DNA of 38,895 nt from an uncultured Alphaproteobacteria bacterium (lineage in GTDB: Bacteria; Pseudomonadota; Alphaproteobacteria; RF32; CAG-239): contig CANPYS010000017.1 in assembly GCA_947588655.1 (NCBI GenBank), forward strand, positions 1 through 38,895. Reading direction: 5' to 3'. Position 1 is the stretch's first letter, and every line of letters begins with the position of its first letter. The position numbers and the translations under genes are program-made. The notes beneath the pieces were generated by a model. It was not told the DNA's origin, searched no databases, and saw nothing but the letters and a program-made list of their open reading frames with translations. Below are positions 6,335-38,712 of this stretch, in pieces.

Positions 6335-6793
6335 ATGAAAAAGATACTTTTTGCCTTATGTTTTTGTCTCTTAACTTTTAATGCAAATGCGCAAATTCGT
6401 TGTCATGAAGACAGTCTCGGATATCGGAATTGCAGTGGAACAAATTCTGATGGTGAATACGTAAACATTCGCTCGCATACAGACAGCCTTGGCTACACAA
6501 ATACCTACGGTTCAATTGGCGACAGAGATGTAAATACGCGCTCTCATACCGATAGCCTTGGATACACGAATACTTACGGCTCTATTGGCGATGATGACGT
6601 AAACACCCGTTCACATACTGACAGCCTCGGTTATACAAATACATATGGTTCAATCGGCGACAGAGATGTTAATGTTCGCTCATATACGGATAGCCTGGGA
6701 TACACAAACTCCTATGGAAATATTGGTGATGACAGCTTTAATTCTCGTTCACATACTGATAGCTTAGGTTATACAAACTACTACGACTATTAA
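6335..6793 (+). CDS. Secreted tandem-repeat protein (probable prophage cargo)
   Basis: N-terminal signal peptide (MKKILFALCFCLLTFNANA) followed by imperfect 23-aa repeats RSHTDSLGYTNTYGSIGDRDVNT. Confidence 0.8.
   Translation: MKKILFALCFCLLTFNANAQIRCHEDSLGYRNCSGTNSDGEYVNIRSHTDSLGYTNTYGSIGDRDVNTRSHTDSLGYTNTYGSIGDDDVNTRSHTDSLGYTNTYGSIGDRDVNVRSYTDSLGYTNSYGNIGDDSFNSRSHTDSLGYTNYYDY
6470..6790 (+). repeat. Tandem 69-bp coding repeat
   Basis: CGC-TCN-CAT-AC... repeat starts at 6470 and 6539 (69-bp period) and continues in frame. Confidence 0.85.
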
Positions 6794-6814
6794 TTAAAAC
6801 AAATTTCAACAAGG

Positions 6815-31337: not shown

Positions 31338-31767
31338 CAAAAGTCGTATAACGGCACATCTAAAGGCACTTTGGTGGGTCTCGGAAAATTTATGTACCTC
31401 TTTGGTCTTACTTATAAGGGTTGCCAGAAATGGCAACCCTAACTCGTTTCGGTCTTGCTCGTAAGTTTTGCGTTAAGCGCAAAACTAACTTGCTTCGGTC
31501 ACTGCTCTGTAACGCTTGCTTTGGCGCTTATCAGCGCCTTGCAAGCTAACACTCGCGTTATATCGCCTAAAAAACAACAACTTTTGTTGTTTTTATAGGC
31601 TCTACTTGCTTTGTAAAACCTGCCACGGTCGCTATTGCTCCCTTGCAGTTTTAACAAAGCTACGTCGCTTGTGGTAAAAACAACCCGCTGGGGTTGTTTT
31701 TATCCTCGCGCACTAAAAATTTCCTCACCCTTAAAGTGCCTTTATTTGTACCATTCTCCGACTTTTG
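31338..31767. repeat. ~430-bp element with 35-bp terminal inverted repeats and internal hairpin array
   Basis: 31338-31372 matches the reverse complement of 31733-31767 at 29/35 positions; interior lacks convincing ORFs. Confidence 0.65.
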
Positions 31768-31911
31768 GGCCCCTAAATATTTAAGCAGAGGGACTTTCGG
31801 CGTATTTGCGTAGGTATTTCATATTTTGTCTCTTGGGTGGCTTTTTTTAGTTGACTTCATTATTGCTCATTATTAAAATTAAACGTATTGAAATCTGCAG
31901 AAAGGGACTCT

Positions 31912-32963
31912 ATGAAAAGACTATATTCAATTGAGTGGCTTAGAATTTGGTTTACTGCTTTAATTATTCTTTGTCATACTGCATATTATAACTTAATAAC
32001 GAATTTTTTTCATGGTCATAGTGTGTTAAGTGGTTCAACTTATACCGATGTATTTTTTCTAATAAGCGGATTTTTTATCTTTATATCATTGCAGAATGCA
32101 AAGGATGAGTCAATTATTCAAGTAATTAAGCATAGATGTTTACGTCTTTTACCCGCTTTGTGGCTTTATAAAATATTATGTGTTATTTTATTGTCGTATA
32201 AATTTAAATATTTACCAACAGATTTGATAATGTTTAATAAAAATGTTGGGATTGATGTTCAGACAAATACACATATTATTTGGTTTGTTGATGTTTTATT
32301 TTGGGTTAATATTTTTTATATTACACTTTATTTTTCTTGTAAAAATAAAATTCATTTTTTCTTTCTAACAACTTTAATAATGTATTTTTCTTTAGTTATC
32401 TTATTTAGCCACGATAATATCAATTTTCATTTTCAAATGGCAACAATTTATTTAGATGGAGGTGTTCTAAGAGGGTTGGCTTTTGTTGGTTTAGGGATTA
32501 TAGTAGCTTCATTGCCCAAATGCCCTACCTTGTCTTCCCCCCCCCCTCACACACACAACTAAAAAAAGATACGTATAAAAAAGTTACAAGTATAGCTATT
32601 TTGATCTTAGAGATCTTTATAACTTTTATGGTCTTTTTTTATCCGATGCTGACTGATTTGAATAAAGGAAAAGCTTTAAATTATATTTTATGGTCTGCCT
32701 TATTCTTATATTTGATGAGATATGAATATGGTGCTTTTTCTAAAATCTTTAATTCTCAAAATAAACTGTCTTTTTTGTCGGAAATATGTTATGAAACGTA
32801 CATCTTTCAGTTTTTTGCGATAACAGTTATTGAAAAATATTTTTCTTTTCTTCCGATAATTTTTCAAATTTTGTTCATTTTGATTTTGTCTTTTGTGATT
32901 GGAAAAATTGTACATGAAATAGTCAAAGTTATTTTTAAAATGCTGATATCTAAAAAAGTTTGA
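31912..32963 (+). pseudogene. Acyltransferase family 3 membrane protein, split at a C10/(CA)5 tract (frameshifted or phase-OFF)
   Basis: ORF 31888-32562 (N-terminal AT3: YSIEWLRIWFTALIILCHT) and ORF 32520-32963 (C-terminal TM region) in different frames joined at C10 (32537-32546). Confidence 0.8.
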
Positions 32964-38308: not shown

Positions 38309-38348
38309 ATTCCCTCAAACGTCATGCTGAGCTTTGGTGCGATAGCAC

Positions 38349-38420
38349 CATTCGCGAAGCATCCAGGAACAATAGAGCTATTTTGTTGTCCTGAACTCTT
38401 CGCTGGCGCTCAGAGTGACG
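38349..38420. repeat. Dispersed repeat copy 2
   Basis: CATTCGCGAAGCATCCAGGA...GTTGTCCTGAACTCTTC...TCAGAGTGACG. Confidence 0.75.
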
Positions 38421-38426
38421 TAGAGG

Positions 38427-38585
38427 TTTCAAAACACCAAAAGTAATTGGTGTTTTGAAAGCGAGATAACGCGATTGTTAGCTTGCTTTGGCGATGACAA
38501 GCGCCAAAGCAAGCGTTACAGAGCGGTGACCGAAGCGAGTTAGTGTTGCTATAAAGGCAACACTTACGAGCAAGAACGTTTCGGG
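38427..38585. repeat. Second copy of modular hairpin repeat (inverse orientation to 31.4-31.6 kb)
   Basis: Linkers such as GCGTTACAGAGCGGTGACCGAAGCGAGTT and CTTACGAGCAAGA match the reverse complement of 31441-31565. Confidence 0.8.
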
Positions 38586-38595
38586 AGCTCATAAA

Positions 38596-38657
38596 GAGAT
38601 GCTGAAACAAGTTCAGCATGACTTTTGGAGGAGATGCTGAAACAAGTTCAGCATGAC
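38596..38657. repeat. Two tandem copies of GAGATGCTGAAACAAGTTCAGCATGAC
   Basis: Identical 27-bp units at 38596-38622 and 38631-38657; each contains an inverted repeat ATGCTGAA/TTCAGCAT. Confidence 0.9.
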
Positions 38658-38712
38658 ATTTAGGGCGTTCAGGATGACGATTCTGGGGACTTTTTTATTT
38701 AAGGAGTAAAAA

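Follow-up and report, generated by a model that had tools for sequence, protein, structure and literature searches.

The window examined here is the whole stretch of 38,895 nucleotides from an uncultured Alphaproteobacteria bacterium (contig CANPYS010000017.1, which is contig C17 of genome G000, 1.55 Mb in 55 contigs). It contains two complete copies of a non-coding repeat element of about 154 nt, consisting of three hairpins joined by conserved linkers. Copy 1 lies on the minus strand from 31604 (TAGAGCC) to 31454 (GAGCAAG), with a HipA-like gene on one side and an acyltransferase gene on the other. Copy 2 lies on the plus strand at 38421-38574, between two divergently oriented genes and upstream of both. 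In order, the element consists of TAGAGCC, hairpin A with the loop AAAAGTAATT, GCGANATNACGCGANTGTTA, hairpin B with the stem GCTTGC..GCAAGC, GTTACAGAGCGGTGACCGAAGCGAGTT, hairpin C, and TACGAGCAAG. No gene lies within it, conservation drops sharply on both sides, and the period of tandem copies is also about 154 nt.

The original prediction had described an identical order of hairpins and linkers in the two copies, a linker between hairpins B and C matching at 27 of 29 positions, and stems A and C that differ, and reading of both sequences bore out each point. The linker is GCGTTACAGAGCAGTGACCGAAGCAAGTT in copy 1 and GCGTTACAGAGCGGTGACCGAAGCGAGTT in copy 2; stem C is AGTTTTGCG/CGCAAAACT in copy 1 and AGTGTTGC/GCAACACT in copy 2, and stem A is CCTATAAAAACAAC/GTTGTTTTTTAGG and TTTCAAAACACC/GGTGTTTTGAAA, respectively. 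Copy 1 is present as predicted, but its right end had been placed at 31416, which reaches into a separate hairpin module (31453-31407).

Copy 1, delimited by the linker search and the covariance model described below, has a stem A loop without TAA. It comprises, on the minus strand, hairpin A (GCCTATAAAAACAACAAAAGTTGTTGTTTTTTAGGC, 31565-31600), linker 1 (GATATAACGCGAGTGTTA, 31547-31564), hairpin B (GCTTGC...GCAAGC, 31514-31546), linker 2 (GTTACAGAGCAGTGACCGAAGCAAGTT, 31487-31513), which is the most conserved part, hairpin C (AGTTTTGCGCTTAACGCAAAACT, 31464-31486), and the conserved tail (TACGAGCAAG, 31454-31463). Copy 2, delimited by the linker search and folding, comprises, on the plus strand, hairpin A (38427-38460), linker 1 (38461-38480), hairpin B (38481-38514), linker 2 (38515-38541), hairpin C (38542-38564), and the same tail (38565-38574). 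The hairpins were placed from the sequence together with covariation in copy 1 (that of stem A in the case of hairpin A) or folding in copy 2, the second linkers from the linker search, linker 1 of copy 2 from the sequence, and the tails from the sequence and the conservation profile. The predicted fold of copy 2 has an energy of -69.5 kcal/mol (z = -9.3 against dinucleotide shuffles). An intrinsic terminator was rejected, as stem A fails a terminator scan and copy 2 lies in a divergent region, upstream of both neighbouring genes.

Two further hairpin modules adjoin copy 1 on the minus strand. One of similar style (ACCGAAACGAGTT-AGGGTTGCC..GGCAACCCT-TATAAGTAAG, 31407-31453) has a near-identical counterpart after the orthologous copy in the congener G001. 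The other (GTAGCTTTGTTAAAAC...GTTTTACAAAGCAAG, 31605-31662) lies upstream of the copy and was recognised from the sequence and the comparison of the orthologous locus.

Distribution and covariation of the element

The linker pattern gave 67 matches on both strands of G000 and a reversed-pattern control gave none; thus, the window copies are not chance occurrences but members of a dispersed family. The same pattern gave 35 matches in G001. We then used a covariance model constructed from 57 aligned copies of the window's genus (g1), which matched at least 114 of the 152 genomes of the family, in at least 15 of its 16 genera. In a sample of the whole class, at least 4 of 240 genomes matched, namely three members of the family and G052 from another family. 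These model counts are lower bounds, as strict filters were applied and the matches per genome were capped. The sequence read in the genomes consisted of the stretches around matches, and the copy number of the element ranged from 1 to about 70 per genome. Phage records contained no match to the element. No Rfam family exceeded the gathering threshold in the window, and among eight element loci only the adjacent tRNAs passed in Rfam, other weak matches falling below their gathering scores. Our literature searches found no description of such an element. The linker pattern was also present in CANRKV010000022.1 (L169), a contig from a rabbit sample that was binned as Jeotgalicoccus, probably through a binning error.

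The stems vary far more than the sequences between them: mean conservation reached 86% in linker 2 and 89% in the tail but lay at 58-66% in stems A, B, and C. In the 57 copies from g1, 94.5% of the pair cells were standard, the covariation score was 0.192 (0.098 when shuffled), and 149 cells differed on both sides, compared with 58 in shuffles. Among 72 distinct matches from the whole family, the covariation score was 0.546, compared with 0.142 for shuffled alignments and at most 0.089 for slid structures, and both sides had changed in 38 of 43 pairs. The family-wide alignment was fitted to the model and is thus somewhat biased towards the structure, yet the scores of the slid controls lay far below; the covariation counts take no account of the relatedness between genomes. 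Across genera, almost all positions of the stems occurred as three or four Watson-Crick types, and wobble cells were few in stem A. In stem C, the non-Watson-Crick cells on the shown strand were mostly G-U and not A-C (28 to 3), which suggests that this strand folds, as RNA or as single-stranded DNA; the excess does not discriminate between the two. We rejected a further helix in linker 2 (GTTAC/GTGAC), which is nearly invariant with a fixed U-G pair and thus has little covariation support.

The original prediction held that pairing is kept while the sequence changes, which suggested selection on structure. Both statements are supported by the family-wide covariation, far above the shuffled and slid controls. 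The first does not extend to the middle of hairpin B, which does not covary, or to the outer stem A of several copies, which is chimeric and unpaired (L017, L027:1463-1617, L041:2091-2245, L044, and L056).

tRNA 3' ends and dispersed sites

In genera other than g1, 83 of the 111 matches were located at most 600 nt beyond the 3' end of a tRNA gene, and one match lay solely upstream of a tRNA gene. This association was not visible to the original prediction. The expectation by chance is about two matches (our own estimate, with about 45 tRNA genes in 1.6 Mb), and matches from related genomes are not independent. The 83 matches lay beside 20 isoacceptors, 44 on the tRNA strand and 39 on the opposite strand. 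Many of the 27 matches without a tRNA gene were from G114, which has dispersed copies, or came from fragments of tRNA arrays.

The typical layout on the tRNA strand is the tRNA, a terminator, an antisense piece of the T-arm, a short sense piece of the T-arm, the core, a sense copy of the T-loop, T-stem, acceptor, and CCA, and often a second terminator. A copy of the cognate tRNA 3' end directly followed the element in 46 of 68 distinct cases, compared with 14 of 340 (4%) when other tRNAs were used. The copy mostly began 13-21 nt from the tRNA end, that is, in the T-loop or the 3' T-stem. At 53 tRNA loci with a core, the cognate copy was downstream in 41 and upstream in 2. The tRNA-Asp arrays of genus g6 contain one to three units, and every one of them has the same 18-nt tRNA end as its boundary. 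Comparison of this array between G130 and G020, in which the downstream DNA is common, revealed the gain or loss of one whole unit, which belongs to a second type. The core in G052 is flanked by direct repeats of about 90 nt that carry the tRNA end, the terminator, and the antisense T-arm.

The second type of unit (CATCTTAATGAGC..GACCGCAGCGAATTTAGATG..AGCTGCGAAGCAGCGT before the copy of the tRNA end) was observed in arrays at L275, L038, L089, and L277 and has its own hairpins and linkers. In L123 (1501-2755), two direct cores surround about 960 bp with an apparent methyltransferase-like gene (by eye), in the manner of a gene cassette.

The tight association with tRNAs, together with the covariation that supports the fold over 15 genera, would suit a structured non-coding RNA, perhaps one acting on or beside tRNAs as a 3' trailer, a decoy, or a processing signal; its fold would be under selection, and the dispersed copies would be retroposed or duplicated RNA genes. 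The G-U excess in stem C, pointing to the folding of one strand, would also suit it, although single-stranded DNA would do so equally. However, the element stands behind the tRNA terminator, in either orientation (44 and 39 cases), and it has no conserved flank able to hold a promoter; promoter-like sites near the window copies were no commoner than in shuffles. The lack of an Rfam match, the wide range of copy numbers, the near absence of wobble intermediates in stem A, and the swapping of whole stems also argue against an RNA, and we regard this explanation as possible but unlikely.

In the window's genus, copies interrupt other dispersed hairpin repeats; for example, the core is found between GTCATGCTG and AA.GTTTCAGCATC, and between GTCATTCTGAGGCG and AAGCCGAAGAATCC. 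G114, from a different genus, is a second genome with dispersed copies, and there the core lies between CCCTCCCTGAAAACTCAGGGCTG and AAGGTTGGGGAGGG. No short target site duplication was visible by eye in the g1 flanks, and no terminal inverted repeats were seen across the core.

In the window, the regions 38320-38420 and 38596-38690 contain other dispersed hairpin repeats (CGTCATGCTGAG..CATCCAGGA; GATGCTGAAACAAGTTCAGCATGAC) with conserved flanks and variable stems, and their CGTC start recalls the CGTC superfamily of repetitive extragenic palindromic (REP) sequences. Copies of the element also occur just upstream of paralogous genes starting with ATGARGTACGTTTTA (window 38712 onward, L014, L027, and L041), which by eye encode small secreted-type proteins. 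Elsewhere in the window, an Acyl_transf_3 acyltransferase at 31888-32963 extends over two overlapping open reading frames (ORFs) in different frames (profile positions 2-201 and 206-320) and is probably frameshifted, and a 69-nt tandem repeat of four to five copies at 6454-6798 overlaps an ORF.

Exchange of stems and a possible mobile cassette

At the tRNA-Trp locus, G000 and G001 share a stretch of about 175 essentially identical bases that takes in both linkers and hairpins A and B. The hairpin C that comes next is ACGATTGCTCAAAGAGCAGAGT in one genome and GGGGTGCCATTCCCGGCAACCC in the other, with a changed tail and an 18-nt length difference just behind it, and then about 100 identical bases follow. 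At other loci common to the two genomes (window copy 1 and L075, tRNA-Ser, and tRNA-Arg), the differences are mainly in the stems. Among 73 copies, the alleles of stems A and C assorted independently (z = 0.9), as did the two middle arms of hairpin B (z = 1.2), and neighbouring parts of the element were linked. The swapping of stem cassettes, proposed in the original prediction, is thus supported by the replacement of stem C at an orthologous locus and by the independent assortment of alleles. These observations and the chimeric stems imply that part of the covariation stems from the shuffling of hairpin modules. The best reading is that the stems diverge in two ways, by compensated change that retains pairing and by block replacement of hairpin modules between copies; the latter probably proceeds by gene conversion or template switching.

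Independent assortment and chimeric stems would also be expected of a passive mosaic, in which tRNA ends with strong terminators are hotspots of tandem duplication and template switching, and palindromes are homogenised by gene conversion with no dedicated mobility. The sense and antisense T-arm pieces beside the core do resemble products of snap-back template switching. Nevertheless, the conservation of the linkers over 15 genera and in both orientations requires a constraint beyond homogenisation, and the mosaic does not account well for the spread of copies over about 70 sites in one genus, with an independent spread in G114, or for the finding that one and the same core has cognate tRNA ends at 20 isoacceptors. 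We therefore consider a purely passive origin rather improbable.

We favour, with moderate confidence, the reading that the element is a mobile cassette, non-autonomous and dependent on structure, for which the tRNA 3' end is the older habitat and which became dispersed in the window's genus with exchange of its stems. In this cassette, the conserved linkers and tail (TGTTA, GTTACA..GGTGACCG.AGCGAGTTAG, and CTTACGAGCAAG) would be the recognised sequences, and the three stems would act only as folded structure. The core would move as DNA, with the folded strand as the substrate of an enzyme supplied in trans, probably a host or helper recombinase, that recognises this strand and the linkers. 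The older, presumably ancestral, target would be the tRNA T-loop. At tRNA genes, the core occupies the T-loop of a shortened copy of the tRNA end, in both orientations, and after it comes a direct copy of the cognate T-arm, acceptor, and CCA end, often with a terminator. Because the cognate end is copied after the core, the functional tRNA is retained and units stack in tandem. In the window's genus, and once more in G114, the core would have left the tRNA sites for dozens of others, mainly inside other hairpin-type repeats, and the stems would then have diverged in both of the ways given above.

Several observations weigh against the cassette. The genomes were assembled from metagenomes, mostly of animal gut samples, and in G000 a linker match is found no farther than 160 nt from 15 of the 110 contig ends (0.8 expected). 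As the contigs often break at the element, the number of copies counted in this genome is a minimum, and assembly errors could explain a few of the chimeric ones. Arrays at tRNA genes, on the other hand, recur in many genomes from independent studies, including assemblies of 20 contigs or fewer, and are therefore not an artefact of one assembly. One core beside 20 different tRNAs is a poor fit to a single fixed att site. No perfect empty site for the core alone was read; the clean presence or absence between G130 and G020 concerns the other unit type in the same array. In a flank-pairing test of the dispersed g1 copies for insertion into hairpin loops, 9% reached score 8, compared with 4% in the null, which is not significant; being close to the null, it led us to reject a general claim of hairpin-loop insertion in g1.

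That no mobilising enzyme was identified also speaks against it. The original prediction had raised the possibility of a linked transposase, which we did not find: Y1_Tnp (PF01797) is absent from G000 and G001, the two genomes richest in copies, although it is present in 45 of 128 family genomes. Genes of the IS110 (PF01548) and TnpB (PF07282) types are absent from G000, and an IS110 bridge RNA and a TnpB omega RNA were rejected on this ground. G000 has three tyrosine recombinases, of which two have an Xer-like size and the third lies in a prophage. The single reverse transcriptase gene lies beside phage-type genes and a lectin-like protein and has no link to the element. This prophage (G000:C3:57468-61800; L261, L193) contains the reverse transcriptase (383 aa) shortly behind the lectin-like protein, as well as a hydrolase and an integrase, and the region looks like a diversity-generating retroelement. 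In L193 (2600-3453), the prophage integrase lies beside a partial tRNA, truncated close to the anticodon loop, whose end also carries an inverted copy of the core (69.8 bits). We did not adopt the phage integrase as the mobiliser, since a tRNA target that the two happen to share explains the arrangement more simply.

If the cassette reading is correct, the element brings integration at tRNA genes together with dispersed palindromic repeats, a topic usually treated separately from it, and suggests that a dispersed repeat family may originate as gene-less cassettes at tRNA ends. It is also a natural case in which conserved linkers can be separated from exchangeable stems, and thus lends itself to the question of whether structure or sequence is what a recombinase reads. 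For covariation-based RNA discovery it serves as a caution, as the swapping of hairpin blocks among repeats can give rise to covariation without stepwise compensatory mutation.

Comparison with known systems

In integrons, attC sites vary in sequence while their fold is kept (PMC2727003), and the element resembles them in this respect and in its unit arrays. The core might accordingly be an attC-like folded recombination site with the DNA between cores as a cassette, of which the methyltransferase-like gene (by eye) between two direct cores in L123 would be an example. However, the element has three separate hairpins in place of a single imperfect palindrome with R and L boxes (sought by eye only), it carries no gene cassette as a rule, its copies are dispersed and not in one array, and no integron-type integrase was identified among the three tyrosine recombinases of G000, which were not examined in depth. 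An integron-like origin is therefore very improbable.

The element is like REP sequences, bacterial interspersed mosaic elements (BIMEs), and REP doublets forming hairpins (REPINs) in being a short intergenic palindromic repeat with many copies, mosaic composites, alternative complementary stems, and, as in some of those families, no dedicated transposase. REP sequences fall into GTAG and CGTC superfamilies, the CGTC type being common in Alphaproteobacteria and sometimes lacking a dedicated transposase (PMC3733652, PMC3116915). The original prediction had contrasted the element with REP sequences and BIMEs, in which the stems are the conserved part; this is fair in emphasis, but published REP families include sub-families with alternative complementary stems (PMC3733652). 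At 154 nt, and with its three hairpins and conserved linkers, the unit differs from the REP palindrome of 20-40 nt, the linkers and tail and not the stems are its conserved part, and its habitat throughout the family is tRNA ends with cognate end copies. Derivation from REP/REPIN or IS200/IS605 elements, with movement by a Y1 transposase, is hardly credible: many g1 copies do have GTAG or GTGG in front of stem A and Y1_Tnp does occur in the family, but the tag is found in only part of the g1 copies and is not conserved in other genera, and neither of the g1 genomes, which carry most copies, has the gene. On the same two grounds, we rejected the system of REP sequences and REP-associated tyrosine transposases (RAYTs).

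Like miniature inverted-repeat transposable elements (MITEs), the element is non-autonomous, non-coding, dispersed, and hairpin-forming. It may differ from MITEs in that no terminal inverted repeats around the core and no short target duplication were seen, and no parent transposase was found; in the tRNA context, the direct repeats flanking the core are the tRNA end with or without a terminator. The site at a tRNA 3' end, with a direct repeat of that end, is shared with the islands, phages, and satellites that integrate at tRNA genes, as are the intact tRNA and the tandem units. Unlike these, the element is only 150-260 nt in length and gene-less, and a single core occurs beside 20 isoacceptors in both orientations with an antisense T-arm copy adjoining.

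The element fails the tested defining features of REP sequences (the tag, a Y1 gene in the richest genomes, and stem conservation) and of attC, and there is a real chance that it is a class separate from the known kinds. We tentatively propose, with considerable reservation, a new tRNA-end cassette system, in which the gene-less folded units of an alphaproteobacterial family would be inserted at many tRNA T-loops by a structure-reading enzyme, duplicating the cognate end and terminator, stacking, and occasionally dispersing, with their hairpins exchanged as modules.
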